Below, in pieces: positions 28,854 through 63,250 of a stretch of 64,000 bases of DNA (positions are counted from its first letter, which is position 1; each line of letters opens with the position of its first letter). The position numbers were made by a program, and so were the translations under genes. Under the pieces are notes generated by a model. That model had not been told where the DNA came from, searched no databases, and saw nothing but the letters and a program-made list of their open reading frames with translations. Source of the stretch: Lunularia cruciata (taxonomy: Eukaryota > Streptophyta > Marchantiopsida > Lunulariales > Lunulariaceae). The DNA lies in the NCBI GenBank assembly GCA_948567375.1, contig OX419755.1, forward strand, positions 873,001 through 937,000. The letters run 5' to 3'.

Positions 28854-29009
28854 CGTGTGCTTCCTCACCTTCTTTCGATGGAAGATCATTCTCGAGATCC
28901 TAACCCACTCTTCTTCTTGCGGATTTGCAATTTGCATTACTTTAGGTCAACTTTGAATAGGAACTGGGTAGTGACTGGACATTGCTCTACTTCCTTGCAC
29001 CACTTGTAA

Positions 29010-29016
29010 TTTTATA
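29010..29016 (-). promoter_or_regulatory. TATAAAA box P1 of L7
   Basis: TTTTATA on the plus strand, that is CTATAAAATTA on the LTR strand, 379 bp from the LTR start and 157 bp upstream of the LCP ATG. Confidence 0.55.
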
Positions 29017-32150: not shown

Positions 32151-32189
32151 CATCAAGGGTATGTGTGGGCTATTTTCCCAATGATAACG

Positions 32190-34543
32190 GTGAGGAACAA
32201 TCTTTGAAGGTTAGATGTAGTGGCAAGGATCAAAGACTTGAGTAGACTTTGGATTATTTTTTTGGCTTGGAATTGAACTTGAGTTTTCTAGGATTCATGG
32301 CAAAAATCACTACCAGCAATTGTGAGGATGGTCTTGAAGTAGAGGAAAAGAGAGGAAATCTGGCTCATTGTATCAAGTTGGATTGGAGATTTGTCTTGGG
32401 TAGAGAAGTGGGAGATGCATAAGGAATCACCTTTCATAAGTCTGAGTCTTCAAAGGAGATGGACAAGGTAAGTAATTCCTACAATGCTCCTTGCTTGCAA
32501 GAGGAATACAAGGTGGATAGTAATAAAGACCCAAGACAATGAGGTATTGTTGGGGCTTTGATGGTGATGCTTAAAACTAGAGTGCACCACCTACATAACA
32601 AAGCAGCAAGTGGTGTTCTTCTCCAGATGTTTGCAAAATAGGAGGTGAATTGGGTGAGGTGCTTTCACCTACAAATGAGGCAAATGATGGTGAACTGGAG
32701 AATGAACGTGCCTCCACATTACTTTGTATCATTTTCAACACATCTTTACCTTAGGTTGAATCTTCTCAACATGGAGGAGAAGAAGGTGATGGTTTCTCAT
32801 TTGCATCCAGATCTACATTGAGATGCAGATACAGACAAGGAATATTACATAAGGCAGATCTAACAAGGTGAAAAACACTTTGCCAAAATGAGACGAGAGA
32901 GAATTGTGTCAATATCCATTCCAAACCTAAATTTGAGGAAGAGGAATAGGCTTGTGAATGTAGTATCCTTAGTTCAGTCAAGAAAGACAAGGAGATTGAA
33001 CCTAAGGCACAAAGTGGTGGTGGGCCTATTGTCAAAGGAAGAGTCTGAAGACAAAGACTTAGAAGAAGAAGAAGAACTCGCACTATAGAGTAAGGAGTTG
33101 AGAAAGAGTGATGGAGAGCCTAAGGTTCAACAATTGGTGGAAAAAAGGGCTGAAGAAGATGATAAAGATTTCCATGCACAAATTGAATGCACAAAAGGCA
33201 AAGATAGTCAGTAAGTGGCGTTGGCCAAAGTAGACATCTTGGAGGAGAAAGAAGAGGAGCCAAAATTGGTGTTTCCACAAGGAGTGAGATCAATGAGAGT
33301 TATATAGTTTGCAATTGTAGGACCAAGTCAAGTAAATGTAGAAGAAGATAGCTCAAAGGAAATCAGTTTGAAGGTGAGACAATCAAGAATTTGGGGTAAG
33401 GCACTGATGGTAGAGTTGCCAATTAAAGCCAAGGACAAGGAAGACAAGAGAGTGAAGTGTAAAAGTTCCAAAGGGTGGATCATTTGTCCATTGCTTTTGG
33501 AATTGCAAAATAAGAGGAAAGAAATGCAACAAGATAATCTGGAGTTGAAAGATGAGTTGTAGGTGGTGAGGAATCTAATTGAGGAAGTCTTGGAGTTGAA
33601 GGAGAAGTTAACCCAAGGAGAGGAGGAAGCCAAGTTCTTTGGGTTGATGTAGTATTTCAAAATCAGAGTTTAGAGAATGTGTAGGAGTTTGAGAAGCATG
33701 CCCGTATTATGGAGTGTCAAGAAGAATAATTGAAGGAGTAGAAAATGGCATTCAAAAGACTGATGATGGAGTTCAATGATGTGTGACATGAAGTATAGCA
33801 TTCTAAGGCCATCACAATAGTAATGAAGTAGGAGATAAAGAGCCTACAATTGGTTGCAGTAGGAAAGATCAGGCCTAGCAATGGAAGCTTGTGAAAAGCA
33901 CGGAGGCTTAGCTGATTCAATATGCAGAGGAGAAAGAAGCATTGAGACCAGAGTTTGAAGAGGAGTTGAAGATGTATCAAAATGAGTTGGAAGCAGAAAG
34001 AACTTGGGAGAAGTTGGTTCCAAAGACGACATGGATCTTGGTAGGAGAGATCATAGGGAGGTTGAAAGCAATGTTGAGTACCAAAGCAAAAGTAAAGTTG
34101 GAGTAAGTGAGATTGCATGAGTTGAAGTTGCTTGTGGAGGAGATGAGGGAGAGGAAAGCAAAGGACACCAATCTGAACAAGTTGTTAATTTGCTTGAGAG
34201 ATGGAGTAGATAAGAAGATAATTGAAGTAGGAGATAATGTCTATCTTTGGTTAGATTTATTAGATTAGGATTAGATGGAATTCATAGTAGTGTGAAGGAG
34301 GAAACCTGATGCAATGAAGTTGATGCAGGAGTGTAGGTGACTTCCGATGAGTTACCTAAGTCATCTGAAGTAGTCAGAGTAGAGAAAGAGAAAGTAGTTA
34401 GCATAATGATGATGTTAGTTTCAGTTTAGACCAGAGATATAGCAAAAGTAGAAGAAATAGTAGATGAACCCAAAGTGTGGCAGATAATTGTAGGTACATT
34501 GGGTATAGGAGCTAAAGTAGAATTATACATTGGGTTAGAGTAG
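32190..34543 (+). pseudogene. LCP gene, oldest subfamily (L8)
   Basis: RLDVVARIKDLSRLWIIFLAWN-like start with stops, then TFHKSESSKEMDKVS near 32430, a region equivalent to PPHYFVSFSTHLYLRLNLLN near 32710, LNLRHKVV at 33000, a coiled coil from about 33440 to 34200, and a tail with stop at 34541-34543. The order of blocks is as in other copies. Stops are denser than in L7, L12 or L14, fitting its place in the oldest element. Confidence 0.65.
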
Positions 34544-34667
34544 GAGTAGCAGTTTTGAGTCTGAAAAGATAGATATGAAAAAGTGGAGTGACACTTTGGA
34601 TCTATAGATTTTTAAAGTAGCAGTTGAAGCAGTTTAGGTAGTTTGGATAATTTTTTAGTGCTTTGCC

Positions 34668-34674
34668 TATTTAA
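34668..34674 (+). promoter_or_regulatory. TATTTAA box P2 of L8
   Basis: GCCTATTTAAAGGAGGCATT, identical in context to the 5' LTR box at 12504. Confidence 0.5.
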
Positions 34675-35108
34675 AGGAGGCATTTTCAATGAGTTTTTGT
34701 TCAGTATTCATATTTTTAAAGTTGAGTAATGTGGTACCCACATTTTTGTGTTTTTGAGTTTTAAAGGAGAAGTGCGTTGGTAAAGCCGAAGGAAGGCTAA
34801 ACAGGGAAGAAACAAGAAGAATCGTGTATTTGGCATAAACCCAAAGTCAACCTCAGCTCAAAGTCCAAAGGACTTGGGTTGGAAAAAATGAAATATGAAG
34901 AAGAGGACTTTGTATCAGGTAGTGCAACAGATCTAAAGATCCTATAACAAACTTCTTTGTGTTTTGCCAATCAAAAAAGTACACAAGAAGAAAGTGACTA
35001 CCTCGGCACAAAGATGTTCTTGAAAGTAATAGGAAACAAATTCAAAAAATTGGTGAGTGATACAAAGAAGAAAAGAAGCAACTGAAGAATGAATGATCAG
35101 CAAAGGAC

Positions 35109-35115
35109 TATAAAA
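35109..35115 (+). promoter_or_regulatory. TATAAAA box P1 of L9
   Basis: GGACTATAAAATTGAG, 379 bp from the LTR start and about 130 bp before the LCP ATG. Confidence 0.55.
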
Positions 35116-35246
35116 TTGAGATTTTAGTGAGGAAGTGCTGCAATGTCTAGATGCTACCTTGTTCCTATTCAGAGCCAACCCGAAGGAATGAAAACTAGAA
35201 GAGGAGTGGGTTTGATCTTCATAAGTGGAGGGTGAAGAAGCACATG

Positions 35247-37508
35247 ATGGCCCCAAAATTGAGTAAGCAGAGTGCGGTGAGGGGTCTTGCAATGTGCAGA
35301 TTAGATGTAGTGGCAAGGATCAAAGTCTTATTGAGGCTTTATATCACATTTCTGGCCTCAAACTGAAATTTGAGTTTTCTAGGGTTCATGGCAGAGATTG
35401 CTGCTAGTGATTGCAAGTATGGGCCAAAGCATGAAGGGAAGAAGGAAAATCCGGCTTGATGGACTAAGTCCGATTGGAGATTAGTCTTGGGTAGAGAAGT
35501 AGGAGAAGTAGGAGGTGTCACCTTCTACCAAAAGTGTGATGCGTTGAAAAAATTGCCAAGGTTAGGAATTCTTTTAATACACATTGCACCAAGAATGGGT
35601 ATAAGGTGGATAGTTATAAAGACCTAGTGCAAAGAGGATTGTGAGCATGATGATGGCTATGTTCAAGCTAGATTGAACCACTTACATCACAATGTAGTAG
35701 GCAGTGTTCTTTCACCAAAATGTTTGCAAGAGAAGTGGTGGACTGAGCAAAATGTCTACACCAATTTGTGGGGCAGATAATCACTAGTTGGAGAATGGAT
35801 ATACAGCCTCACTACTTTGTACTCTTTGCGGCTCATTTCTACTTTGGGTTGAATCTCTTGACTTTGAAGAGAAGCAAAATGTGGTCCTACTTTCACCTAG
35901 ATCTGCAAAAGGAAGCTGATACGGATGAACGCTATTACATGGGGCGGGTTTGTGAAGGGGATGATTATTACATGAAGAATTGGAAGGAGAAAATAGTAGC
36001 AGCGGATATCCCCATGCTCAAAAAGCAAAGTAGACCTGAAGGAAAAATTACATTGGTGCATCCTCAAAAGATACAAAAGCTTAACCCAAAGCCAACACTG
36101 GAGAAGGTGAAAGAATTGATTTTGGAGGAGGAATCAGAGGGAGAAACTGAGTTGAAGGGAGAAGCCTTGGGAGGAGAAGAAGAGTTTACACTACAAAGTG
36201 AGGAATCAAGCAATAGCAGTGAAGGAGAAGAGAAGTACTCTAGTTGCGGTTGTAGGATCAAGCAAAGCTACCGCCAAGGAGGAGGAGAGTTCAGATGAAG
36301 AAACATTGAAGATACAAAGATTGTGTCTTTTGAGCAAGGCACCAATCAAAGGATTACCTGCCAAAGGCAAAGAAAGCAAAGACAATGGAAGGAAATATGA
36401 TGGAGTGGAGTATCTGTCAAATATCATGTATCCTCTATTGGTGTTTTTGCAGCAAAAGAAAGTGGAGATGACAAGTGCTAATCTAGATGTGAAGAATAAA
36501 TTAGCCATTGTAATGAAGTGGAGTGAGGAGACCTTGGTGTTGAGAAGCAAGCTAATGCAAGTAAAGATGGAAGCCAAAGAAATTTAGGTGGAGGCAGTTC
36601 TTCAGAGCAAAAACTTGGGAGTGGTGAGGGAAGACTTGGTGAAGTGTAAGGAGGAATTGAAGGAGAAGATGGCATTGGTCAAAGTATTGAACAGGGAAAT
36701 TGTGGATGCACAAGTGGAGGTGATACATTCAAAGGTAAGTGCAGCATTGATGGAGCAGGAGTTGGAGAGTATGAGGAAGAAAGCAACCAAGAAGGACCAA
36801 GCCTGGCAGCAAGAGTTAATAGAGCATGGTCAGGAGGAAGAATGATTGTGAGGATTGCTGAGAGGAGCAGAAGATCAACTAGTTGTGAACAGACAAGAGA
36901 AGGAAGCAATGAGTTTGAGGATGAGTTGCTGATGTATTGGAATAAGCTAGAGGAGGAGAGAAAGAAAGAGAAAGTAGAGCTAGGGGTGGCGTAGGATGTA
37001 GTGGGAGTAGTGGTAAATGAGTTGAAAGTGCTGCTCAGTATTGAAGCCAAGGGTAAGTTGGAGGAGAAAAGACAAGTTGAAGTGGTTGGTGCAGGAGATG
37101 AGGAAGAGGAAGGCAAAGGACATGAAGTTGAATAATCTTCTTATTCATCTGCAAGATCATGTAGATAGAAAGATTTTAGAGGTAGGAGACAATGTTTGTC
37201 TCTGATTAGATCTTATTAGATCAGACTTGGATAAACTCCATAGTGAGATGAAGTTAGAGAAGAAGTCCAAAGTACTAGAAGTAGGAGTGCAAATGTCATC
37301 AAGTGAGTTACCTAAGACGTTAGAGAAGAATGGGTTAGAAGATAATGATGTAGATAGAGTAGATAGGAGTGCAATTGTAGTTAATAGTGAAGAGATAGTC
37401 AAAATAAATGATTTAGGAGTGCTATTAGAGAGACCCAAAGAAGGGGAAATTCTTGAAGGAACCTTGGGTTTGGAAGCCGATGTCAAGGTTGACATCGGAT
37501 TGGAGTAG
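35247..37508 (+). pseudogene. LCP gene, full span, broken (L9)
   Basis: Start ATG at 35247 gives MAPKLSKQSAVRGLAMCRLD. A long readable block (35768-36298) includes PHYFVLFAAHFYFGLNLLT, DERYYMGRVCEGDDYY and an acidic linker. The coiled coil at 36430-36845 contains ALMEQELESMRKKATKKDQA. The tail (37227-37508) ends DIGLE with a stop. About 754 codons over the span; it is shorter than L7 because of small deletions. Confidence 0.75.
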
Positions 37509-37625
37509 TAATAGTTTTCAAATATGAAGAGGCAGATATGAAGAGGTGCATTGTCATTTTGGATCTATGGGTTGGTAAAGTTGTTGTAGAATGGTATAGT
37601 TGTTAGTAACTATCAACACTTTGCC

Positions 37626-37632
37626 TATTTAA
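37626..37632 (+). promoter_or_regulatory. TATTTAA box P2 of L9
   Basis: GCCTATTTAAAGGAACCA, 674 bp before the LTR end. Confidence 0.5.
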
Positions 37633-38300
37633 AGGAACCATTCAAAGCATAATGTTGTTCAACATTAGTAATTTTGAAGATAGATAAAGTGAAGTGTTGA
37701 TGTACTTGTCGCTTGAGCTTAATTCTGAGTATCAATCCTCTGTTTGTGTTTGTGAGTGTGTGGAGAATTTCAAAGTGCAAGCCAGTGTGCTTGTTGGATG
37801 TTGGATTCCATAGCACCAGTCTTCATTTAGTGTGTTTGATCTTGAGTGAAGTGCAATCAAAGCAATGCCTTGACATATCTAAGAGGAATTGTAGTGTTGG
37901 TAGTATTTTGCATTAGGGAGTGTCGCACAAGATTGATGCATAGCAATTTTGATCAAGGAATTTGTGCCTTTGGTGGAGGGGTGGAACACAATTCTAAGGC
38001 AAAGTTGTTTTGCAATGAAGTAGCTATCTTTGGGAAAATTTGAATCATCACAATCAAGATTTGTTTGGACAGAATTTGATGGAGTTGTGATTAAGGAGTG
38101 CTAATTTGTGACAAAATTGCAATTTGGTGCTTGTTTCTCTCTTTTGGGTGTAGTTTCTACCTAGGAGACTAAAGATGAGCTCAAGAAGAACTACATTGTT
38201 ATTTTTTGACTTCATATTTAAACATTTCTGAATTGTGTCTCTATTAGAACAAACTTTACTTATTGATTACTACGAAAGTGATATTTTCCAGGTTGTCACA

Positions 38301-39445
38301 TATCTAGTGTCCCTAGTGAAGAGGAGGATCATTCAAAGACTGAATTTGAGGCACAAGTCAGCAATGGTTGATTTGTCATTGGGAGTTGAGTCAGATGCAA
38401 AGGTAGAATCCAACTATGGGAATTCTTAAGAAGGAGAGCTTACTCTAAAGAGTAAGGAATCAAGCAATAGGAATGGAGAAACCAAGGTCTAGTAGTCAAT
38501 AGAACAAGTGATTAAGGAGGAGGATCAGGAGTTCCAAGTGGATATTGAATGCATGGAAGGAGGAGATACCTAGTACTTGGAGTCATATAAAATGGACATT
38601 CTAGAAGAATGTGATGAAGAGCCAAGACTAGTATTCCAAAGAGGGGTGCAATCAAGAAGAAGTTTACAACCTATAAGTATAGGACAAGCCAAGCCAAAGA
38701 AGATGAAGAAAGCTTGGAGGAGGTCAATTTGAAGGTGTGGAGGTCAAGAATTTGGGGTAAGGCACCAACAAAAGACAAGGACAAGGACAAGGACAAGGAA
38801 GAGTTTAGAGTGAGTTATTTGTCAAAGATTGTTTGTCTATAAGCATGTGGAGGGGTTGAAGGTGCTTTGAGAGAAGGTGAGAGAAGAGATGACTCAAGAG
38901 GAGCTGATCTCAAAGGAGGAATTGGGATCAATGGAATAAATTATTAGTAGAGTGAAAGTGATCTTTAGCATCGAGTCCAACGTAAGATTGAATGAGTCTT
39001 GCCGGCATGAGTTAAAGTTGTTGGGAAAAGATTAGGAAGTGGAAGGGGAAGGATAGGAGCAATCTGTTGATTTGTCTCAGAGATTTGTAGATAAGAAAGA
39101 TCTATTGATCTGTCTTAGAGATAGAGTAGATGCAAAGATAATTCAAATAGGAGACAATGTTTGTCTCAAATTCATAATAATTTGAAGGAGAGCAGAGAAG
39201 CCTAATGTGAAGTAGTGGAAGTAGGAGTGCAGGTGATCTCAAATGAGTTATCCAAGTTATTTGAAGTAGAGAAGGAGAATGTAGTTAGTATATTGATGGT
39301 TTCAATTGTAGTTCAAACTAAAGACATGACTAAAGTAGATGAAGATGTAGAAGTAGTAGATGAATTGGAAGAGCGAAAGGTGCTTGTAGGTAATTTGGGT
39401 GTAGAAGCCAAAGTAGAAGTAGAAGTTGGATCATATGAGATGTAA
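38301..39445 (+). pseudogene. LCP gene, C-terminal half (L10)
   Basis: Linker and coiled coil with many stops and a large internal deletion (little of the usual 300-residue coil is left between 38820 and 39000). The tail at 39215-39445 is open and ends VGSYEM. The tail motif is of the E0 type (EKENVVSILMVS), placing L10 in the oldest LTR group. Confidence 0.6.
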
Positions 39446-39562
39446 CAAATTGAGATCTAAAGCAGTAGATTTGAGGTGGTAGAGTCTTGATTCAAATCTA
39501 GGTATTTGTATGAAGTAGTTGAAGTGGTTTAGGCAATCTAGATAATTTTTGAGTGCTTTTCC

Positions 39563-39569
39563 TATTTAA
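39563..39569 (+). promoter_or_regulatory. TATTTAA box P2 of L10
   Basis: TTCCTATTTAAAGTATTC, about 650 bp before the LTR end. Confidence 0.45.
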
Positions 39570-40228
39570 AGTATTCATGTGTAGTGTTTTATTCAATTAG
39601 TATTCAATTTTGAAGTTGAGTAAAGCAAAGCGCTCAACTCAATGTATGTCATTTTAGCTTAATTTTGAGTATCAAACTTGTGTATGTGTTTATGGGTGTG
39701 TGGAGAAATTTGTGTTGCAGTTGGTGAGTGTTAGATGTTGGATTATACAACTCTGATTTCATTCTATGTGTTTGATCTTGAGAGGAGTGCAAGAAAAGCA
39801 ATGCCTTGACAAATCTATGAAGAATTGTATTGTTGGTAGTATTTTTCATTTGTGAGTATAGCACTGGATTAATGCAAAGAAATTTTGATGGAGGAAATTG
39901 TGCCTTCAATGGAAGGGTGGAGTGCAATTTTAAAGTGAAGTCACTTCATGGTGAAGTAGCCTTCTTTGAAGCAACAAAATCATCACAATCAATATCAATT
40001 TTGAGAGATTTGAAGAATTGTGATTTATGGGTGATATTAATTTGTGACAAGACTACAAATTGAGCATTGGGTGTGGTTTCTATCCAAGAGGCTAAAGATG
40101 TAACAAACAAGAATTGAATTGTGACTTTTACTCCATATTTGACCATTCTTGACCAATATCTTTATAAGAACAAACATTTATGTATCAATTATTGCAAAGT
40201 GATACTTACTAGGTTGTCATATGATTTT

Positions 40229-43433: not shown

Positions 43434-43808
43434 TGTGGCGCTCACATTTTTAGTTTTTTCTGTTTATTAGCATTTGGGAGAAGAAGTAAGCAAAGAAAGC
43501 TGAATTGCAAAAGAAGGAATGGACCGGAGTGTCTTCAGAGGAAATCTGAAGAAGTTGATTTCGGATCCAATGACGGAGGTACTCAAGAGAGGAGTACAAA
43601 GAAAGAAGTCCAAAGAGCATTGTCTTTGGATTGGGAAGCAAAGGCCGATACAAAGACCCTCTAACAACCTTGGTACGTGGCAAGAAAGTACACTTCAAGA
43701 AACGGCGGAGGCAGAAGAAGCATGCCTTGACAGTGACAGGACAACAACACTCAAGACAAGGAGAAGTCAATTTTGAAATCACTAAAGAATGACTGCAATT
43801 TGGGGTAA

Positions 43809-43815
43809 TATAAAA
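43809..43815 (+). promoter_or_regulatory. TATAAAA box P1 of E2 5' LTR
   Basis: GTAATATAAAATTGCG, 375 bp from the LTR start and 186 bp before the LCP ATG. In the 3' LTR the same site is TATACAA (57494), a later change. Confidence 0.55.
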
Positions 43816-46800
43816 TTGCGATTGCGTAGAGACAAGTTGAATATATCAAGTAGATTTCCAATCCCTCTGAGTAGGTACTTTCAGTATTGCGTGTCAGGAA
43901 GCCCATTGAGAGTGAAATTTTCCAAAATCCAAAAGGGGTTAGAGTGTCTTGTCCAAGAGAAGGAATAGTTTTCCAGTGATGAAGAACAAGAGAGCAGATC
44001 ATGGCAAAGAAGGTCACAAATGCTATGGCGATGCCAAGTTTTGCAATTTCTAGGCTGGACATTGTAGCAAGAATCGAACTCTTGAATAGACTTTGTATTA
44101 CTTTCTTAGCATGGAACTAGAATTTGAGTTTCCCAAGAGTCATGGCAGAGATAGCTGCCAATAATTGTGAGGAAGGCCCCAAAGTCAAGGAGAAGAAAGG
44201 AAATCCGGCTCGATGGACTGAGTCAAATTGGAGGTTACTCTTGGGGAAGGAAGCAAGAGAACCAACAAGGATCACCTTCTATCTGAAGTGTGATGCTGCA
44301 GAGGAGACAACAGACATCCAACATTTGTTCTTTGCTCTGCGTACAACGAACGATTACAAGGCGGAGTCCTATTGGGACCCAATAAAACAGAGTTGTGAGG
44401 ACAATAATGGCCATGTTCAAACCAGAACAAATGACTTACATAAACATGCAGTAGACGGTCCATGCAAATTTCCACCACATGTTTGCAGGAGTGAAGGTGA
44501 ACAGGGCAAAGTGTTTTCACCAACGAATGAGGTAGATGGTGGTCATTTGGAGGACAGGTTTGCCTCCACATTATTTGCACCATTTGCAGCACACTTCTGC
44601 TTTGGGTTGAACTTGCTGACAACAAAGGAGAGGTGTCACATGGTGTCTTATTTCCATCCTGATTTGAGATAGGAAGCGGATGAAGAAGAGCAACAATATA
44701 TGGCACACCTGCAAGCCAATGATGATCGCTTCTTGAGGACGGGACAATGGAAGATGGGAGAAGTCACAAGCCCAAAGAAGAAGAAGCGCAATAAACCCAA
44801 AGATGCAAAGTCACCTCTAGCACAAAGGAAGACCCGAAGACTGGTTCTGCAAAGGAAGAAGATGGTGAAAGAAGCACCGTTGGAAACCGAGTCTGAAGGG
44901 GAGACAGAGTCTTGAGGAGAGGACTCAAAAGAAGACAAACTCACTTTATAGGGTGAGGAATTCAGAAGTGAGATTGAGGGGGAATATGAGGTTTAGCAAT
45001 CGGTTGGAGTGGGTGAAGCTTGTCATGCAATGATTGACAGTTTACGAGGAAACATGAATCATTGCGTAGCCCTAGTTGTGGAAGAGAAGGGGGCTGAAAG
45101 ACGGAAGGAGTACCCTACGGGGCCAATTTTAGTAGGTTAGGAAGAAGGAAGCTCAGAAGCAATGTCTCTAAAGATACAAAGATCATGACTTTGGTAGAAG
45201 GAGCCGATGGAAGAAGCAAATTACAAAGATGGGGCTGAAGACAAAGAGAACTTTGGCGGAATACAATATCTATCAAAGGTTGTCACTCCATTGTTGGAAC
45301 TATTGAAAGAGCACCCGAAGGTAATTCCTCAAGATTGTGTGAAGGTGACAAATAAGTTGCAGGTGGTGAAGTATCTACTAGTTGAAGTGAAGGGTTTGCA
45401 AGAGCATGTAGTCTAAAGAGATGAGGAAGTTGAAGAACTTTGGGTGGATGCAGTCTTGAAGAAGACTTTTTAGAAGTTGCAAGAGAGTTTTGAGTCAAGA
45501 GGTAAGGAAATGCAAAAGCAAGTCAAAGAATTGAAAGAGCAGGCAATGTTGCTGACCAAGATGAAAGGGGAGGTCAATGATATGCGCATCAAGAGTATTC
45601 ATGTGAAGGCAATGGCCGCAATAATGGAGCAGGAGTTGGAAAGCTTGAGGAAGAGTGCAGCCAAGAAGGATCAAGCATGGCAAAGAGAGTTGGTGGTCAA
45701 GCATCGAGAAGAAGAAAGATTGCATGAGCTGGTACAAAGTGTTGAGTTACAGAGTTCACAGTATGCGGAGGAGAAGAAGATGCTCGCTGCAGAGTACGAA
45801 GAGGAGTTGAAGATGTACAGCGGAGAGTTGAAGGCAGGGCAATCTCAAGGTTATGAGTGGGAATCAGTAGGAGAAGTTGTAGGAAAGTTGCAAGCAATCT
45901 TGAGCATAGAGGCTGAAGGGAGATTGGAAGAAGCATGTCTACATAAGTTAAAGTTGCTTGTGCAGGAAACTTGGAAGAGGAAAGCCAAAGATGTAGATAT
46001 GAACACTTTACTGATCCGATTAAGGGAGCGAGTAGATTGGAAGATGTTATAAGTAGGAGACAATGTCAATCTTAGATTAGATTTAGTCAAGTCAGAGTTA
46101 GAGAGAATTAGGAGTAGTGTGATAGAGGAGAGGAAGTCCGATGTTGTAGAAGTAGGAATTTAGGTATTGTGAGAACCCGGCAAATATCACTTTTGTGGTA
46201 ATCGAGTAAGTAAAGTTCATTCACATAGAGATACGAGTCAAAAATTTCCAAATATGAAGTCAAAGTAATAATTGCAATTCTTCTTGGTTGCGTCTTTAAT
46301 CTCTTAGGTAGAAACCACACCCAGAAGAGAGTAACAAGCATTGACTCGTAGTCTTGTCACAAATTAACACTCCCTAATCACAACTACATCAAATCTTTCC
46401 AAACAATCTTGATTGTGATGATTCAAGCTCTCCCAAAAATGGCACTTCACTACAAAATGACTTCACATCAGAATTGTGTTCCACCTTTCCATTGAAGGCA
46501 CAACTTCCTTGATCAAAATTGCTTCACATCAACCTTGCACAGCACTCACAAATGCAAAATACTACCAACACTACAATTCCTCTTAGATCTGTCAAGGCAT
46601 TTCTTTGATTGCACTTCACTCAGGATCAAACACACAGAATGAAGATCAAGGCTGTGGAATCCAACATCCAACAACCACACTGACTTGCAGTTCAAAATTC
46701 TCCACACACTCACAAACACAATTGCAAAGCTGATACTTGAAATCAAGCTTAAGCGACAAGCACTGCTTCACAGCACTTTGCTTTATATATTCTTAGAAAT

Positions 46801-46838
46801 AATGAGCATTGAACCACATGATACTGCAAATGCCACTC

Positions 46839-46845
46839 TTAAATA
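46839..46845 (-). promoter_or_regulatory. TATTTAA box P2 of L12
   Basis: CACTCTTAAATAGTGAA, reverse of TTCACTATTTAAGAGTG, 678 bp before the LTR end. Confidence 0.5.
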
Positions 46846-46963
46846 GTGAATCAATTGACAGTTATCTTCCTAATGTATCTCTTCCTAATGACTCTACAAA
46901 CCTGCAGATCCAAAATGACAATGCACCTCTTCATATCTGTCTCTTCAAATCTCAAATTGATTA

Positions 46964-49395
46964 CTAATCCAATCCGATGTCTACTTCTTCTTTGGATTTC
47001 AAACCCAAGCCCAAAGTAACTTTACTTCTGACTACTCTATGCTCAGGTTTTATAATTCCTACATTTCTACTAGATCTAACAATTCTCTTTCTTGATCAGA
47101 CATTTCACTAGTGGGTAATCTATCTAACTCCTTATTTGCTGACCCACTCTTCTCTAATGTCTCCAATGGTAACTCCGAAGACATCTGCACTCCTACTTCA
47201 TCTACTTCAGTTTTGGCTTTAATGTCTTTCCGAAGTTTATCTATCTCTAACTTCACTAGATCTAATCTAATCGTGATATTGTCTTTGACTTCCAATATCT
47301 TCCTATCTACCCGAGTTCTGAGACTAATTAATAGAGCATTCAAGTTTGTATCCTTTGCATGTCTCCTCCTCATCTCTTGCACCAACAACTTCAACTCGTG
47401 CAGCCTTCAACTCGTCTCTTCAATACCAACACTGGCCTTTGTACTCAGCATCGCATTCATCCTGATTACGATCTCCTTCAATGGCTCCAATCTCATCTTC
47501 CTTTCATGCTCCCAATCTGCAAGCCAATCTTCCTTGTACATTGCCAACTCTACCTCAAACTCAGCTTTCATAGTTTCTTTCTCCTTCTCCTTCTGCACAA
47601 TCTTCTCCTCCTGATTACGAAGTAACTCTTGTAATCTCTCTTTTTCCCTATATCTCACTGTCAACTCCTGTTGCCATAGTTGCTTCTTCTCCTCTACACT
47701 CTCCATCACTCTATTGAGTTCTTGTTCCTTCTCTGCTACCCTCACCATAGCATGGATAATTTCTAGTCTGGAATCAACAAACTGCTGCTTCAAGATTTTG
47801 TACTCTGCTACTTGTCTCTTCCTTGCTATGTCACTCTTCTTCACAAGTTCTTCTCGATACCTTGCTTCTCTCTTCAAGTCCTCAATAATTTGACCCTGTA
47901 TTACTATACCCCCTTGCAGTACTTCCTTTTCCTCCTTGCCTCGGGTTATACTCTTCTTCAACTCCGAGTTCTCTTCTTCTAGTCTTGCCAAAACCTGCAA
48001 CACAGTCTTCACCTCTGGACATGTCAATTGCATCTCCTTCTTCTTGTGCTCCAACTTCACCAACAATGGGCACACAATTTCTTGCAGGTACTCCACTCCA
48101 TCACTTGCACCTACTTCCACCTACGGAGTGATCTCCTTCTTTACCTCTTCTCCACCCAATACTCGCCTTCTTCTCTACAGTCGTCATATCGGAATAAACG
48201 CTTCACTCCCCGAGCTAGCATTCTCCTCTTCCCTTGCCTTGCTCGGAACCGCTTCACACTTTGCCTTGCATCTTGACCAAACTCCCCTATGAATCGTAAT
48301 CTTCATTTCCTCTGGCTTGGGTACCTCATCTTCTAACTTTGCATTATTTTCTTCTCGAGCTCCACCCAAACTTCTTCTTCTTCAGCAGCAGGTACCGGCA
48401 TCATCTCCCCATCTTCATCACTATTGCTACTCGTATCTCCACTTTGCAGCATGAGCTCCGGTTCCTCCTCATGTCCCGAGTCTTTGGACTTGCACTCGGC
48501 TTTGCCTTTTGAGTCTTCCTTTGATGATGCGATCACCACTATGCCTTTCCTCTCCTGATCTTCCGAGGTCTTGTCTTCTCCACGTCTTCACCTTCTCCTT
48601 GTCGACTCCACTTCTTTGACTTTGGGGTACTCACTTCTACCTCCACGCTCTTGCCCGTCTGCGCATAGTACTCATCCGTGCTTTGGATTTGAAGAATGTA
48701 TTGTTGCTCCTCCGCGTCGACTTCTCTTCTCAAGTCTAGATGGAAGTGAGACACCATTCTGCTGCGCTCTGCCAAATTGAGCAAATTCAACCTGAGGTAG
48801 AAATGTGCTGCAAATGGCATGATGTAGTGTGGAGGCAACTTATCCCACAAATTCCACACCATCTGTCTTGTCCTCCCATGGAAGTACCTCGCCCAGTTGA
48901 TAGGTTCTCTTGCAAACATCTTATGGAAGAACACCGCTTGGTGTTTCATCACATAAGTTGTTCTCTACGGCTTTAGGATTGCCATGAGAGCACTCACAAT
49001 CCCTCTCTTCACTGGATCTTTGTAACTCTTGACCTTAAACCCATTCTTTGTTCTCTTTGAAGAGAAGGCATCCCTAATTCTTGGGTTTCTTTGGCTACCT
49101 CTCCCTTTCCCAAGAATGTGGCACCTTGCTCCATGCTTGCCTCTCTTCCGAGCACTAATCTCCAATCCAACTCTCTCCAGCAAGCCGAATTTCATCTCTT
49201 CCCCTCTTCCTCGGGGCCATCAAGACACTTACTCTTGATTATCTTGGTCATGAAACCTGGAAAACTTACATTCCAATTCCACACCAAGAATGTGATCCAA
49301 AGTTGGCTCAAGACTTCAATTCTCACTATCACATCTAACCTCCGGATCGCATGATTTCTCATTGAAAATTTGGAGTTCTTCTTTCCTCCTCCCAT
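46964..49395 (-). pseudogene. LCP gene, least decayed copy (L12)
   Basis: ATG at 49395 gives MGGGKKNSKFSMRNHAI, then RLDVIVRIEVLSQLWITFLV. After a frame change: DAFSSKRTKNGFKVKSYKDP and RGIVSALMAILKP (48965-49195); then an open 137-residue block (48539-48952) with AVFFHKMFAREPINWARYFH, PPHYIMPFAAHFYLRLNLLN and DAEEQQYILQIQ. An acidic Ser/Glu linker follows (48184-48539), an open 237-residue coiled coil (47407-48120) and the tail (47059-47394). About 810 codons with four or five breaks. The coil has repeated E/K/L heptads and shows no transmembrane segment. Confidence 0.82.
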
Positions 49396-49552
49396 CTTTC
49401 CTGCTTCCTCACTATCTCTTGGTTTAACTCTCTCGAATTCTCCTCTACACACTAGCGCATTGTCAACTCTACTTCCCTTCCCATGATCTCCTACAAGACG
49501 ACTTCTCAATGGCAAAGGAAAATTGCTCGACATTGCTTCATTGTTAGCTCGA

Positions 49553-49560
49553 TTTTTATA
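49553..49560 (-). promoter_or_regulatory. TATAAAAA box P1 of L12
   Basis: On the LTR strand CTATAAAAATCGAGC, 412 bp from the LTR start and about 160 bp before the LCP ATG. It is deleted in the otherwise similar E3 LTR. Confidence 0.55.
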
Positions 49561-50305
49561 GAGTCGCGCCTTCTTCGTCTCTCTTCAATTCAAGTTTCTA
49601 CCAAGAAATCACACCTCTTGCATGCACCTGTCACTATCAATTGTACTTCACGTGTATGGCCACCGGTTTTGAACGGTCCCTTCTTGAATTTCTCACCCCA
49701 AAGAAAGGGTGTTATACTGTCTTGGCCTCGGGTTGAGCTCCCCCGGAAACAAAGACTTTTTACTTTGGGTTGTATGCTGACAGGGCAAGTCTGAGTACTT
49801 TGCCTTATGACCCAAAGCCACTTTACCTCAGGTTTCATCCCAAAGACTCTTTTCTTTGCCTTCTTCAAGTCTGAGTACTTCATCTTTGGATTGTGCCATA
49901 TAGGCGCAATCTGACTTCTCTATACACTTCTTCTTCTCTATTTAAAGAAAAAAAAAAAATGTGGGTACCACAAGTGTCTTCAAACTTGTGATTTGACACA
50001 TTAGAGAAGAGTGGGTTTCAAGATAAAGAAGTAGATGGATTATCCATGACCTCAGTTGTAGATTGTAGAGAAGAGATAGTAGAAACAGTGAAGGATTTAG
50101 TAGTGGTAGATATACTCAAAGAAGGAGAAGTAATAGGAAGATCATTGGGTTTAAAAGCCAATGAGGAGGTTGACACCGGATTGGGGTAGAAACAGATTTG
50201 AGATTTGAAGAGGCAGATATTAAGGGTTACATTGTCAATTTGGATCTACAGGTAGGAAGAGTTTTTATAGAATGGTATTTTTGTTAGAATTGTAGTTTGC
50301 TTCAC

Positions 50306-50312
50306 TATTTAA
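50306..50312 (+). promoter_or_regulatory. TATTTAA box P2 of E2 5' LTR
   Basis: TTCACTATTTAAGAGTGGCA, the promoter expected to drive the genomic RNA, 677 bp before the LTR end. Confidence 0.55.
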
Positions 50313-50990
50313 GAGTGGCATTCGTAGTAAAATGTTGTTCAATATTCAAATATTTGAAGATAGATAAAGTGAAGTGCTGTTTTTAGTGCTCGTCGCTTGA
50401 GCTTAATTCCAAGTATCAACTTTTTGTGTGTTTATGAGTGTGTGGAGCATTTCAAAGTGCAAGTCAGTGTGCTTGTTGGATGTTGGATTCCGCAACCTTG
50501 ATCTTCATTCTATGTGTTTGATCTTGAGTGAAGTGCAATCGGAGCAATGCCTTAAAAGATCTGAGAGGAATTGTAGTGTTGGTAGTATTCTACATTTGTG
50601 AGTGCAGCGTAAAGTTGATGTGAAGCAATTTTGATTGAGGAAGTTGTACCTTCAGTGGAGGGGTGGAACAGAATTTTAAGGTGAAGTTGTTTTTGCAGTG
50701 AAGTGCCATCTTGGAGAAAATCTGAATCATCACAATCAAGATTTGTTTGGACAGAATTTGCTATGTTGTGATTAAAGAGTGTGCACTCATGACAAGTTGT
50801 CAAGATTGTGAGCTTGTTACTCTCTTCTGGGTGTAGTTTCTACCTGAGAGATTAACAAAGAACTCAAGAAGAACTACATATTACTGTTTGACTTTGTATT
50901 TGACCAATTCTTACCAATATCTCTACGGGAACAAACTTTACTTACATGATTACCACAAAAGTGATATTTGCCGGGTCGTCATATGATTTT

Positions 50991-57108: not shown

Positions 57109-57121
57109 GAGAGAAGGGGTA
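57109..57121 (+). other. Polypurine tract of E2
   Basis: GAGAGAAGGGGTA immediately before TGTGGTGCCCACA at 57122, priming plus-strand synthesis at the 3' LTR start. Confidence 0.85.
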
Positions 57122-57906
57122 TGTGGTGCCCACATTTTTTTTTTTGGTTTATTAGCATTTAGGAGAAGAAGTAAGCAAAGAAAGCTGAATTGCAAAAGAA
57201 GGAATGGACGGGAGTGTCTTTGGAGGAAATCCAAAGAAGTTGACTTTGGATTTGATGATGGAGGTACTTAAGAGAGGAGTACAAAGAAAGAAGTCCAAAG
57301 AGCATCGTCTTTGGATTGGGAAGCAAAGGCCAATACAAAGACCATCTAACAACCTTGGTACATGGCAAGAAAGTACACTTCAAGAAACAACAGAGGCAGA
57401 AGAAGCATGTCTTGACAGTGACAAGACAACACCACGCAAAAGAAGGGGAAGTTGATTTTGAAATTGACTAAAGAATGACTGCAATTTGGGGTAATATACA
57501 ATTGCAATTGCGCAGGGACAAGTTGAATATGTCAAATAGATTTCCAATCCCTCCGAGTAGTCACTTGGAGTAATGCGTGTCAGGAAGCCAATTGAGAGTG
57601 AAATTTCCAAAATCCAAAAGGGGTTAGAGTGTCTCGTCCAGGAGAAGGAATAGTTTTCCAGTGCCGAAGAACAAGTGAGTAGATCATGGCAAAGAAGGTC
57701 ACAAATGCTATGGCAGTGCCAAGTTTTGCAATTTGTAGGTTGGACGTCGTAGCAAGAATCAAAGTCTTGAATAGACTTTGTATTACTTTCTTAGCACGGA
57801 ATTGGAATTTCAGTTTCCCAAGAATCATGGCAGAGATAGCTACCAATAATTGTGAGGAAGGCCCCAAAGTCAAGGAGAAGAGAGGAAATCCAGCTTGATG
57901 GATTGA
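57122..57906 (+). mobile_element. E2 3' LTR, first 785 bp (L13), with LCP N-terminus
   Basis: It matches L11 from 43434 throughout. P1 is TATACAA here. The LCP start ATG is at 57686 (MAKKVTNAMAVPSFAICRLD) and the frame is open for 70 residues to 57896, reading VVARIKVLNRLCITFLARNW, then a stop and the start of E3 at 57907. Whereas L11 has a stop after FLAW, this copy reads through, giving a better view of the N-terminal domain. Confidence 0.88.
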
Positions 57907-58334
57907 TGTGGTACCCACATTTTTTGGTTTTTTCAATATAGAGAAGAAGAAGTGTATAGAGAAGTCGGATTGCGCCTGTATGGCCAAAGAAGGTGAAGAA
58001 AAGAGTCTTCGGGATGAAACCCGAGGCAAAGTAGCTTTGGGTCATAACGTGAAGTACTCGGACTTGCCTTGTCAACATACAACCCAAAGTAAGGAGTCTT
58101 TGTATTGGGAGGAGCTCAACCCGAGGCAAATATAGTGTAACAACCTTTCTTCGGGGCGAGAAATTCAAGAAGGGACTGTTCAAAACCGGCAGCCATACGC
58201 GTGAAGTACAATTGATAGTGACAGGCGCATGCAAGAGGTGTGATTTCTCAGTAGAAACTTGAATTGAAGAGGCGCTAGTGTGTAGAGAAGAATTCAAGAG
58301 AGTGAAATTGAGAGACAGTGAGGAAGCAGGAAAG

Positions 58335-60783
58335 ATGGGAGGAGGAAAGAAGAACTCCAAATTTGTAGTGAGGAATCATGCGATTCAGAGGTTAGATGTG
58401 ATTGCGAGAATCAAAGTCTTGAGCCAACTTCGGATCACATTCTTGGCGTGGAACTAGAATGTAAGTTTTCTAGGTTTCATGACCAAGATAATCAAGAGTA
58501 AGTGTCTTATGGCCAAGAGGAAGAGGGGAAGAGAGGAAATCCGGCTTGCTGGACAAAGTCGGATTGGAGATAAGTGCTTGGAAGAGAGGCAAGCATGGAG
58601 CAGGGTGCCACATTCTTGGGGAAGGGAGAAGTAGCAAAAGAAACCCAAGAAGTAAGGGATGCTTTCTCTTTGAAGAGAAGAAAGAATAGGTATAAGGTTG
58701 AGAGTTACAAAGATCCAATGAAGAGAGGGATCGTGAGTGCTCTCATGGCAATCCTAAAGCCGGAGAGGATGAACTATGTGATGAAACACCAAGCAGTGTT
58801 CTTCCATAAGATGTTTGCAGGAGACCTTATCAATTGGGCAAGGTGCTTCCATGGAAGGAAAAGACAGATGGTGTGGAATTTGCAGGATAAGTCGCCTCCA
58901 CACTACATCATGCTGTTTGCAGCACATTTCTACCTCGGGTTGAATTTGCTCAATTTGGCAGAGTGCAGTAGGTGTCTCACTTCCATCCCGTCTTGAGAAG
59001 AGAAGGCGACATGGAGGAGCAGCAATACATTCTTCAAATCCTAAGCATTGATGAGTACTATGCAAAGACGAGAAAGAGCATGGAGATAGAAGTGAGTACT
59101 CTGAAGTCAAAGAAGCGGAGTCAACAAGGAGAAGGCAAAGATGTGGAGAAGACAAGACCTTGGAAGACCAGGACAGGAAACCCAAGGAGAGGCATAGTGG
59201 TGATCACGTCAGAAGAGGAAGACTCGAAAGGTGAAGCTGAGTGCAAGTCCGAAGACTCAAAACACAAGGAAGAACCCAAGCTCACGCTGCAAAATGGAGA
59301 TACAAGTAGCGATAGTGATGAAGGTGAAGAGATGACGTCGGTGCTTGTTGCGGAAGAAGAAGAAGAAGAAGAAGAAGTTCGGGTAGAGCTCAAGGAAGAA
59401 AATAATGTGAAGTTGGAAGACGAAGTACCCGAGCCAGAGGAGAAGAATTTTACAATTCAGAGAGGATTTTGGTCAAGACACAAGGCAAAGTGTGAAGCGG
59501 GTCTGAGTAAGGCAAGGGAAGAAGGGAATGCTAGCTTGGGAAGTGAAGCGTCTGTTCCGATACGACAATTGGAGAGAAGAAAACGAGTATTGGGTGAAGA
59601 AGAGGTAAAGAAGGAGATCTCTACGCAAATGGAAGTAGGTGCGAGTGATGGAGTGGAGTACCTGCAAGAAATTGTGAGCCCGTTGTTGGTGAAGTTGGAG
59701 CACAAGAAGAAGGAGATGCAATCCACCTGTCCGGAGGTGAAGGCTGTGTTACAAGTATTGGCAAGATTGGAAGAAGAGAACTCGGAGTTGAAGAAGAGTA
59801 TAACCCAAGGCAAGGAGGAAAGGGAAGTACTGCAAGGGAAGGCAGTATTACAGAATCAAGTTATTGAGGACTTGAAGAGAGAAGCGAGGTATCAAGAAGA
59901 ACTTGTGAAGAAGAGTGACATAGCAAGGGAGAGATAGGTAGCAAAGTATGAAATCTTGAAGCAACAATTTGCTGATTCCAGAATAGAAATTATCCATGCT
60001 ATGGCGAGGGTAGCAGAAAAGGAGCAAGAACTCAATAGAGTGATGGAGAGTGTAGAAGAGAAGAAGCAATTATGGAAACGGGAGTTGACAATGAGATATA
60101 GGGAAGAAGAGCGATTACGAGAGTTACTTTTTAATCAGGAGGAGAAGATTGTGCAGAAGGAGAAGGAGAAAGAAATTGTGAAAGCCGAGTTTGAGGCAGA
60201 GTTGGCAACTTACAAGGAAGATTGGCCTGTAGATCGGGAGCGTGAAAGGAAGATGAGATTGGAGCCATTGAAGGAGATCATAATCAGGATGAATGCGATG
60301 CTTAGTACAGAAGCCAGTGTTCATATTGAAGAGACGAGGCTGCACGAGTTGAAGTTGTTGGTGCAGGAGATGAGGAGGAGACATGCAAAGGATACAGACT
60401 TGAATCTTGTGTTAATTAGTCTCAAGACTTGGGTAGATAGGAAGATATTGGAGGTCAAAGACAATATCACGATTAGATTAGATCTAGTGAAATTAGAGAT
60501 AGATAAACTTCAGAAAGATGTTAGAGCCAAACCCAAAGTAGATGAAGTAGGAGTCTAGATGTCTTCAAAGTTACCATTGGAGACATTAGAGAAGAATGGG
60601 TCAGCAAATAAAGAGTTAGATAGATTACCCAGTAGTGAAATTTTAGATCAAGAAAGAGAATTTTTAGATCTGGTAGAAGATGTAGGAATTATGAAACCCA
60701 AGGACAGAGTAGTAGGAAGTACAGTTACTTTGGGTTCAAGTTTGAAAGCCAAAGAAGAGGTAGACATTGGATCGGATAAATAA
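58335..60783 (+). pseudogene. LCP gene, nearly intact in its C-terminal two-thirds (E3 5' LTR)
   Basis: ATG at 58335 gives MGGGKKNSKFVVRNHAIQRL. A stop at FLAWN (58453) and frame changes affect 58500-58620. From 58574 to 58990: KHQAVFFHKMFAGDLINWAR, PPHYIMLFAAHFYLGLNLLN. From 58972 to 59937 it is open for 321 residues: EEQQYILQILSIDEYY, a Ser/Glu-rich acidic linker with a run of eight Glu (59358-59381), then coiled coil. One TAG at 59935 and the coil continues open for 200 residues (59956-60558); another TAG, then the tail (60559-60783) ends DIGSDK. About 815 codons with at least four defects. Confidence 0.85.
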
Positions 60784-60898
60784 CCAATTTGAGATTTGAA
60801 TAGGCAGATATGAAGAGGTGCATTGTCATTTCAGATCTGTAGGTTTGTAGAGTCATTAGGAAGAGGTGCATTAGGAAGATAACTGTCGATTGCTTCAC

Positions 60899-60905
60899 TA
60901 TTTAA
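60899..60905 (+). promoter_or_regulatory. TATTTAA box P2 of E3 5' LTR
   Basis: TTCACTATTTAAGAGTGGCA, 670 bp before the LTR end, followed at 60952-60961 by an AATAGATAAA variant of the poly(A) signal. Confidence 0.55.
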
Positions 60906-61581
60906 GAGTGGCATTCGCAGTCTTATGTTATTCAATGCTCATAATTTTGAGAATAGATAAAGCGAAGTGTTGTGAAGCAGTGCTCGTCGCTTGAGCTTGA
61001 TTCCGAGTATCAGCTTTGCAATTGTGTTTGTGAGTGTGTGAAGATTTTGAAGTGCAAGTCAGAGTGCTTGTTGGATGTTGGATTCTGTAGCCTTGGTCTT
61101 CATTCTGTGTGTTTGATCCTAAGTGAAGTGCAATTAGAGCAATGCCTTGACAGATCTGAGAGGAATTGTAGTGTTGGTAGTATTCTGCATTTGTGAGTGT
61201 AGCGTAGTGTTGATGTGAAGCAATTTTGATCAAGGAAGTTGTGCCTTCAGTGGAAGGGTGGAACACAATTCTGAGGCAAAGTCATTTTGCAATGAAGTGC
61301 CATTTTTGGGAGAGCTTGAATCATCACAATCAAGATTGTTTGGAAAGAATTGATGGAGTTGTGATTAAGGAGTGTGAATTCGTGATTAGACTGCGAATCA
61401 GTGCTTGTTACTCTCTTTTGGGTGTGGATTCTACCTGAGAGATTAAAGACGCAACCAAGAAGAACTACATGTTACTGTTTGACTTCATATTTGGACATTA
61501 TTGACTCGTATCTCTACGGGAACAAACTTTACTTACACAATTACTGCAAAAGTGATATTTGGCGGGTTGTCACATGATTTT

Positions 61582-61599
61582 TGGCGCCGCTGCTGGGGA
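61582..61599 (+). other. Primer-binding site of E3 (tRNA-Asp type)
   Basis: TGGCGCCGCTGCTGGGGA, two changes from the plant tRNA-Asp PBS, six or seven bases after the LTR end TGTCACA. The next bases (AGAGGTAC) already belong to mid-gag, so the leader and gag start are deleted. Confidence 0.88.
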
Positions 61600-62208: not shown

Positions 62209-62890
62209 TGTAACACCCATTTGTGCATGTGTGTGGTATTGTGATATTTAGCTTAGTATTACAAGTACTTAAGAGATATTATTGATAAAACATGGTTCTA
62301 TATTAGTCATGGTTAGCTAAAGTTAGTCATAGCTAAGATAGAGGGGACCTTACTTTAGAGGAAGTAGAAAAGATGAGCACCACTATTTTGGATTTTAGTG
62401 TATTGACTTGGTATTATTCCTAGGTGTTTGGCTTTGAGGAAAGAGTTGAGAACTCTTGGGCCCGCAAGCCTTTTTGTTTTGAATTCTTCTTTAGTCCAAG
62501 GATAGCCCATGTGAAGGAATCCTTGACTTAGTGGTTGGGTCAAGATAAGACCACATGCTTAGGGGAATATGCCCATGTGAATAGATATTCCTTTCTACTT
62601 TTTGACTTTACTTGACTTTTAGTCTAGTAACTTGAGTTACTACGGTAATTAGTAACTTTGGTACGTAACTATTTCACAAGTATATAAACAAGGGGTGAGG
62701 AGGTACTCATCATCCTTTCATTTGCAACTATCTCTCTCTCATTGAGTTCTCTAGTGAGCAATGTCTTGAGTCTTGGAGTGTTAGCCTTGGAGGAGTATGA
62801 TGGAGTTGGGGTTCTTTGCCTTCTTAGTCCATGGTGCGCTACCATAATAGCCATTAGAGGTTCATCCTGAGTGAGAGATAGGCCGGCTCA
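62209..62890. mobile_element. Unrelated solo LTR (TGTAACACCC...GGCTCA), 682 bp
   Basis: It starts TGTAACACCC at 62209 and ends GGCTCA at 62890, with CAGAAC at both 62203-62208 and 62891-62896. Removing it restores the gag sequence CTCAGAACTCGGG, which aligns with E2 at 53215. It is a typical LTR start, ends in CA, and has a TATA box TATATAAACAAGG at 62681. No coding potential. Six bases match at the flanks; five is usual, so one may be chance. It is a different family from all others here, and the most recent datable event after E3. Confidence 0.82.
62681..62689 (+). promoter_or_regulatory. TATA box of the 682-bp LTR
   Basis: AGTATATAAACAAGGGG, a strong TATA box, followed by a CT-rich stretch (CTATCTCTCTCTC) about 50 bp downstream. 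Confidence 0.6.
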
Positions 62891-63250
62891 CAGAACTCGG
62901 GAACTGAGTTTGGAGGAGGAGACGAAGATGAAGCCTCTTGTTTTTCCGGCGGACATCTGATCCAAAGTAAAGGGTCTGATCCAAGCCGAGGTGGGCCAAC
63001 CCGAGGAACCCTGGGTTAAGGCCACTAGCAATCGTATCACCATTTTGAAACGTCCCAAAGTAAAAAGGGAACATGGAGAAACTTTGAACCCAAAGGCAAA
63101 AGTGAAGACGGTCAAATTGGGAGGAGTACCCCAATACAATATTGTAGCGGATTTGGCAGCCACAAATGCCAACTTTACATTCAACCAATTGTGGGAGGAC
63201 AACAAGCCGTACAAGAAGCAGCTAGATTTGGCCCTTAAGAAGGCAAGGTC

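Follow-up and report, generated by a model that had tools for sequence, protein, structure and literature searches.

The lentiviral gene nef is a sense gene that lies in U3 (the unique 3' region) and is present in the long terminal repeat (LTR). In the accessible part of an account of mouse mammary tumor virus (MMTV), LTRs are described as ordinarily non-coding, and the sag gene as lying mostly in U3 and served by several promoters, including one in U3 (PMC4667437). Extra open reading frames (ORFs) of plant LTR retrotransposons are described as internal-region genes in an excerpt of a 2020 review (PMC7264820), and the available portion of a large plant survey classes them by position relative to the polyprotein (PMC6317226). 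Further excerpts place antisense Transposase_28 ORFs of Retand between pol and the 3' LTR (PMC11963269), report that some Retand elements also encode Smc-like regions, credit Grande gene23 with a promoter of its own and a product found in the nucleus (PMC7264820, PMC11963269, PMC6317226), and describe the extra ORFs of rotifer elements as ORF3 (PMC5408684). By title and abstract we found no gene inside a plant LTR in the open-licence literature, and earlier description elsewhere is possible; open-licence papers on an "LTR ORF" or "U3 ORF" mostly concern MMTV and include no plant title.

Here we examine 64,000 nucleotides of Lunularia cruciata DNA (contig OX419755.1, positions 873,001 to 937,000; hereafter the window, numbered from its first letter), a nest of Ty3/gypsy-type elements that belong mostly to one family. 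Judging from its sequence, this retrotransposon family carries an extra protein-coding gene within its LTRs, and the gene is under purifying selection. We regard it as close to certain that U3 of the family holds a selected gene of ~810–857 codons. To the whole mechanism, in which this U3 gene would have its own U3 promoter and encode a nuclear accessory factor, we assign a probability of roughly 55%; the promoter and the nuclear factor are the parts that we infer.

LTR limits and the position of the gene in U3

LTRs of the family start with TGTGGTRCCCACA, end with ..GTTGTCACA, and are ~3.7 kb long in gene-carrying copies. The original prediction, made from the window's letters, had fixed the LTR limits by a polypurine tract (PPT), a primer-binding site (PBS) and target-site duplications, and each of these held up. 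LTRs start directly after a PPT at 22878 and 57122, the LTRs that end at 50983 and 61574 are followed by the PBS TGGYGCCRCTGCYGGGGA (at 50991 and 61582), and exact 5-bp duplications flank the solo LTRs 25646–29395 (TGCAC) and 16437–20204 (TGGAG) and the interrupted LTR 24186–29774 (TTCAC). No exact duplication was found around 3423–7252, 34730–38300 or 46168–49972. The elements have the TG..CA-type LTR ends, PBS, PPT and 5-bp duplication of the Ty3/gypsy type. Domain scans matched Retrotrans_gag (4.1e-12) and Ty3_capsid (9.4e-09) in element L015 from elsewhere in the genome, and zf-CCHC, RVT_1 and RT_RNaseH in window element E1. Integrase domains were matched only at 8034–8555, in another window element, with the 3' internal part of E1 scanned incompletely.

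Two nested elements frame the predicted gene. The 5' LTR of E1 (43434–50983, plus strand) consists of 43434–46167 and 49973–50983, is interrupted by the minus-strand LTR 46168–49972, and is followed by its PBS at 50991. The PPT of E1 lies at 57109–57121 (plus strand), and a closely similar tract stands before other PPT-preceded LTRs. The first 785 bp of the E1 3' LTR follow at 57122–57906 (plus strand), and include the beginning of the conserved part of the gene (57695–57808); over the stretch present in both, the two E1 LTRs are 90.4% identical. E2 sits inserted in the E1 3' LTR, so the DNA directly upstream of the predicted interval belongs to the host of the E2 insertion. The 5' LTR of E2 (57907–61574, plus strand, 3668 bp) carries a copy of the gene, starts with TGTGGTACC and ends with TTGTCACA; its PBS, a pattern match at 61582–61599 (plus strand), begins 8 nt downstream.

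The gene frame runs in sense orientation from LTR nt ~415 to 2985, ~857 codons, or 811 from the next methionine at nt 553. A gene of about 800 codons had been proposed in 57907–61574; the frame stands, and the length is corrected to ~857 codons with a start that is deleted in this copy. Its remains (58335–60780, plus strand) form in-register, stop-free pieces at 58335–58454, 58458–58508, 58529–58570, 58574–58993, 58972–59934, 59938–60555 and 60559–60780, with stops and frame shifts between pieces. As had been claimed for most long copies, a common frame recurs: the pieces were matched in the same order in LTRs 3423–7252, 16437–20204, 25646–29395, 34730–38300, 43434–46167 and 46168–49972, and also in 29775–34729. 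Protein identity to them is ~54–96% in the nearest copy and ~25–50% for the longer blocks elsewhere, and every window copy is broken by stops and frame shifts. The ATG at LTR nt 415 (MSSNFP..) occurs in 14 of 16 type-B copies (the gene types are defined below), is ATA in one and is deleted in the 57907 copy. Two A copies have a related start (MSICYP, MSSHYP), as do three C copies (MPSKFP, and TLSKFP and ISSRFP with a changed first codon); the same scan found no start-region match in two further A copies.

The LTR's own TATTTAA box lies ~120 nt past the gene end (60899–60905, plus strand, in the E2 LTR), which puts the gene in U3. The gene had been placed upstream of both TATTTAA and AATAAA. 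Scanning the last ~800 nt of 11 LTR ends bore out the first, present in all 11 (~−677 from the LTR end in 10, −784 in one), and failed to support the second, present in one (at −623).

Complete elements gave the same picture. Taking the 3' LTR stretch for three elements, we closed two, with LTRs of 3783 and 3782 bp, end-to-end identities of 97.6% and 97.7%, and exact 5-bp duplications (CCCAT and GCCTT); in the third (L018/L031) the 3' LTR was matched only in part. Both closed elements carry the gene inside each of their LTRs, so the gene is indeed doubled per element, and with the solo LTRs 25646–29395 and 16437–20204 the claim that it is also kept in solo copies holds. The gene lies between LTR start and PBS on one side of the element and between PPT and LTR end on the other, outside the internal region that defines the plant additional or extra ORF (aORF/eORF) class.

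Selection, gene types and occurrence in the genome

In a gene tree the protein falls into no fewer than three diverged types, A, B and C, between which much of the gene's DNA has diverged past detection by blastn (L013 was left out of the trees). Across 118 pairs of 16 type-B copies, the ratio of nonsynonymous to synonymous substitution (dN/dS) had a median of 0.17 (range 0.12–0.45) in the frame, against medians of 0.92 and 1.38 in the shifted frames, computed between pairs of natural copies rather than on a consensus or internal branches. An open frame and a low dN/dS had been named as the checks on the original prediction; stop-free copies exist, and the median between natural copies of different elements is this 0.17.

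Codon positions agree. With fifteen type-B copies DNA-aligned to one LTR, the difference rate at position 3 relative to positions 1 and 2 was 2.1–3.3 across LTR nt 556–2750, 1.39 at 352–555, 1.46 in the tail (2751–2985), and 0.80–0.93 before nt 352 and after nt 2985, so that the codon signal stops near the gene limits. Six distant copies (four A-type and the C-type L020 and L014; L031 and L019 were excluded from the codon counts) gave 1.16–1.82 at 556–2985 and 0.92–1.04 elsewhere. Indels that are multiples of three made up 21 of 39 inside the gene versus 18 of 87 outside it in type B, and 61 of 102 versus 17 of 95 in the four A and two C copies. Between window copies of types A, B and C, the proportions of synonymous and nonsynonymous differences (pS and pN) were 0.64–0.74 and 0.36–0.41 in a protein-guided alignment, with silent sites near saturation. 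Read together, these patterns of change indicate that the gene is under purifying selection during element copying. After insertion there is no excess at position 3: the LTR pairs of two single elements differ at codon positions 1, 2 and 3 by 21/9/15 and 17/12/14, with dN/dS of 0.66 and 0.51 from 45 and 43 differences.

Several observations weigh against this interpretation. The nearest window pair (57907–61574 and 46168–49972) lacks a position-3 excess (78, 73 and 92 differences; p = 0.30), with a dN/dS of 0.43 when protein-guided; most of its differences may postdate insertion. The signal is uneven at 75-nt resolution, with a ratio of 1.17 inside the gene (1576–1650) and 1.73 outside it (3151–3225). 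The tail after nt ~2776 is under weak constraint (window-type tail dN/dS 0.38–1.44), which may be explained by the last ~70 codons falling in a stretch common to gene-less LTRs. The first stretch, nt 415–552, is only weakly supported as coding because its pN/pS is 0.49 in frame versus 0.90 and 0.58 in shifted frames. Finally, gene-less family members exist, and the claim of a gene in the family's LTRs thus applies to part of them. These short LTRs of ~1.3–1.9 kb were found at 9137–11048 (plus strand, with an imperfect outside repeat, ATCGT/ATGGT, 4/5 bp), at 24186–25645 (the first part of the plus-strand LTR 24186–29774, interrupted by the solo LTR 25646–29395), at L015:1577–3463 and at L023:1515–2771 (both minus strand). 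They have only the last ~0.9–1 kb in common with gene-carrying LTRs (~1 kb for 9137–11048), and no open frame above 133 codons was found in the three that were scanned.

The genome to which the window belongs (565.8 Mb in 74 contigs) contains 281 occurrences of the PBS pattern and none of a reversed control. In a first census of 19 stretches upstream of PBS sites (L024 left out), the gene could be read from matches in the PBS-adjoining LTR of 15; in L013 and L019 other insertions lie within the LTR. In a second sample, of 1.1 kb each at the expected place, it was present in the expected orientation in 13 of 20. In one LTR of a complete element the natural frame is free of stops over 878 codons. 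Searching the genome with the protein of this frame and scoring 52 of 34,722 first-look candidates, we found all 52 to be 92–100% identical across essentially the full length, eight of them without a stop (the query's own locus counted). Among these 52, two same-strand pairs are separated by 9,951 and 9,954 bp, close to the 9,958 bp spacing of the LTR copies in the closed element L021/L030, and two more pairs lie at 9,004 and 10,233 bp.

Compared with gag, the gene appears to change more rapidly, because its divergence between types B and C is higher (window copies, pS 0.73–0.74, pN 0.38–0.39) than that of gag between the type-B element L015 and three C-type elements (pS 0.42–0.56, pN 0.15–0.22). 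A gag tree likewise separates B from C and broadly matches the gene tree within B. A tree of the last 800 nt of the LTR disagrees with the gene tree: two A-type LTRs group with type B, and gene-less LTRs turn up at three separate positions, support values being modest (0.58–0.88). Across the window and L009–L030, the 3' part of the LTR apparently has a different history from the gene in the 5' part. Such mosaic LTRs arose perhaps by template switching, and U3 appears to be a module that can be exchanged on a shared promoter-R-U5 block. The gene's N-terminal start, the second TATA box discussed below, the gene-less variants and these mosaic 3' ends go beyond the original prediction.

Further remains of the gene lie throughout the window. 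C-type remains in the E1 5' LTR occupy 44010–46160, with the tail at 49974–50180 (plus strand), and B-type remains in the minus-strand LTR 46168–49972 occupy 46967–49533. A-type remains lie at 26443–28982 and 17230–19665 in the minus-strand solo LTRs 25646–29395 and 16437–20204, and at 3825–6362 and 35256–37499 in the plus-strand LTRs 3423–7252 and 34730–38300. Older and more distant remains (copy L4, 32190–34262, plus strand) lie where other insertions have split an LTR region. An older element with much-nested LTRs lies within 1–13184 and 22878–40219 (PPT 22865–22877) and seems to hold this more distant gene form, at 320–1105 and 32190–34262. An unrelated stretch of ~683 bp (62209–62891, starting TGTAACACCC, AGAAC on both sides) breaks the E2 internal region and its similarity to E1, and resembles a solo LTR from a different family.

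Expression, product and alternative explanations

A second TATA-type box, upstream of the gene, lies at LTR nt 369–413 in 20 of 26 gene-carrying LTRs (region nt 340–430 counted; 14 of 18 B, 3 of 4 A, 3 of 4 C). A further B copy, whose start was guessed, has the box at 451. Elsewhere in gene-carrying LTRs such boxes number 29 in 87,102 nt. In the window, U3-internal TATAAA motifs lie upstream of the gene in E1 (43809–43814, plus strand) and at 3791–3796, 35109–35114 and 23266–23271 (plus strand) and 29011–29016 and 49555–49560 (minus strand). Outside the count of 26 stand the four short gene-less LTRs and four unclassed LTRs; the box is present in the unclassed LTR starting at 22878 and in the gene-deleted L027. 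L025 and L027, both PBS-adjacent, keep LTR nt 1 to ~560–700 and the last ~210–320 nt, with the middle, including the gene, deleted.

With moderate support from this conserved box, we suggest that the U3 gene has its own U3 promoter. In the mechanism that we propose, the accessory gene of ~857 codons lies entirely inside U3 of a Ty3/gypsy-type plant LTR retrotransposon and, because it is 3' of the PPT, would sit at the 3' end of genomic RNA and be copied into both LTRs in each cycle, as in MMTV sag. Transcription would start from the TATA box shortly upstream of the gene and end at the LTR poly(A) site, and with its own promoter and this poly(A) site the LTR would form a complete transcription unit. 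The product would, more tentatively, aid expression or transposition of the family in trans, and gene-less LTR variants could therefore persist.

A competing explanation, which we rate as the strongest of the alternatives and nevertheless less probable than the mechanism above, accepts the gene and has its message arise solely at the 3' LTR end of genomic RNA, by splicing or internal initiation, as for extra genes in the env position; the second TATA box would then not be its promoter. The gene stands directly 3' of pol and the PPT, and some copies have an AG after pyrimidine-rich stretches close to the beginning of the LTR. In the copies measured, the second TATA box lies 27–34 nt before the first ATG, and since transcription usually starts ~30 nt downstream of such a box, almost no leader would be left; this also tells against the promoter itself, as do the absence of the box from L024 and L025 and the fact that boxes found in copies of a single type do not count as independent. 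Set against a 3'-end transcript, the box is strongly enriched at one place in three types whose leaders hardly align (~50% differences between distant types), its reading frame differs between types A and B by our reading of the alignment, and none of the four short gene-less LTRs has it there.

The protein begins with an N-terminal domain of ~240 residues containing the nearly invariant block PHY...F..H.Y..LNLL. After it come a linker in which basic clusters (KRTR, KKPR) precede an acidic stretch, a long helical region rich in charge, and a weakly kept tail. No membrane span was found in the 810 residues after the nt-553 methionine (highest 19-residue hydropathy mean 1.09). From the basic clusters, the acidic stretch, the charged helical region and the lack of a membrane span, the product may tentatively be seen as a soluble, probably nuclear, multimeric accessory factor. 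Two results sit poorly with this picture: a pattern scan of the protein found no bipartite nuclear signal, and a heptad test reached z 2 in only 2 of 27 windows, which overlap (z 2.0 and 3.4). The predicted coiled coil of 250–300 residues is hence plausible by inspection and not proven.

The original prediction recognised no homologue, and none emerged from the libraries searched, whose plant coverage is uncertain. No significant match was found in Pfam (searched with the open pieces and a stop-free copy), NCBIfam, PHROGs or PDB sequences (single sequence and profile), nor in scans of viral contigs with the gene's N-terminal piece and with gag. No relative appeared among 5.8 billion proteins, a set whose share of plant proteins is uncertain and which is thus weak evidence of absence; one of the protein-database searches scored the best 8000 candidates by shared words. 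Candidates below threshold were rejected: YwqJ-deaminase (0.0098, 0.047), the sole match in Pfam at E ≤ 10, Nuf2_DHR10-like (0.013), DUF3037 (0.057), HisZ-like (0.087), phrog_3671 (0.056), carbamoyl-phosphate synthase (0.16) and a proteasome subunit (0.98–1.7). A likeness of the PPHY..GLNLL block to the plant transposon domains PF20167 and PF04195 was unsupported by Pfam at E ≤ 10, and PF04195 (Transposase_28), PF10536 and PF03078 are not among the Pfam matches at that threshold. Pfam includes a superantigen model, and no homology to the MMTV superantigen was found there at E ≤ 10.

Capture of a host gene into U3 would fit the lack of Pfam or NCBIfam matches to known element genes and the general view that extra genes of such elements are often acquired. 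We consider it unlikely, as the 52 scored of 34,722 genome candidates, all copies 92–100% identical, include no host counterpart. Less probable still is a protein of the Env-like or movement kind, which is commonly assumed for plant genes in a post-pol position; the gene follows pol in sense orientation, which would suit either, and the product has acidic and charged helical regions and, in the 810 residues tested, no membrane span. That the frame is a chance one, or reflects non-coding constraint on U3, is very improbable. The LTR does hold non-coding constraint, since its last ~1 kb is conserved without a coding signal, and the gene tail lies partly inside this stretch; a dN/dS of 0.17 versus 0.92 and 1.38, the limits of the codon signal and stop-free frames of 878 codons already refute this account of the gene. 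The suggestion that the ~3.7-kb repeats are internal DNA between shorter true LTRs, prompted by the 1.3–1.9-kb LTRs of the family, can be dismissed, because exact duplications bound the 3.7-kb solo copies and the two complete elements (3783- and 3782-bp LTRs, with the gene inside each) and PPT and PBS lie at their ends.

Comparison with known systems

LTRs are handled as non-coding control DNA in annotation and in element dating, and solo LTRs are usually taken as dead relics. With a selected gene in LTRs, repeat masking conceals a protein family, of which the 52 close copies scored are a minimum. Each insertion then doubles the gene, the formation of a solo LTR leaves it in place, and ages estimated from LTR divergence in such families rest on DNA that is partly coding. 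It is a tentative and rather doubtful extension that every gene-carrying LTR, solo ones included, is a self-contained gene with a U3 promoter, a protein of ~857 codons from a new family and its own poly(A) site. If true, solo LTRs would be a dispersed gene reservoir supplying the accessory protein in trans, also to members without the gene.

Among plant elements, the aORF/eORF class (Retand, Grande gene23, the Ogre plant mobile domain, Athila ORF-1) likewise comprises extra accessory genes of Ty3/gypsy elements. In the portions of the sources available these are internal and many are antisense, whereas the Lunularia gene is in the LTR, in sense orientation, and without a Pfam match to the named domains. 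The Transposase_28 ORFs of Retand, as excerpted, are antisense and carry PF04195, unlike the sense gene described here, which has no PF04195 match at E ≤ 10; nor does it match the domains of the Ogre plant mobile protein or Athila ORF-1 (PF10536, PF03078) at that threshold. Retrosat2, RIRE3 and RIRE8 are alike in having LTRs of ~3 kb and an extra ORF0 of unknown function, although the part of the account available places ORF0 before gag-pol and does not assign it to the LTR (PMC3485330). The diverged variants of crapaud (Podospora anserina) are confined to the 5' half of both LTRs and recall the U3 modules seen here; crapaud is fungal, and the opening of its abstract makes no mention of an LTR gene.

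The likeness to MMTV sag predicted for the gene is borne out in layout: each is a sense gene in U3, present in both LTRs, as seen in the two complete elements. The Lunularia gene differs from sag in its length of ~857 codons, in lying entirely within the LTR of a plant retrotransposon in which no env was found, in having no sequence match to sag, and in that nothing about it is immunological. It would be a plant counterpart to the sag and nef layout, apparently independent in origin.

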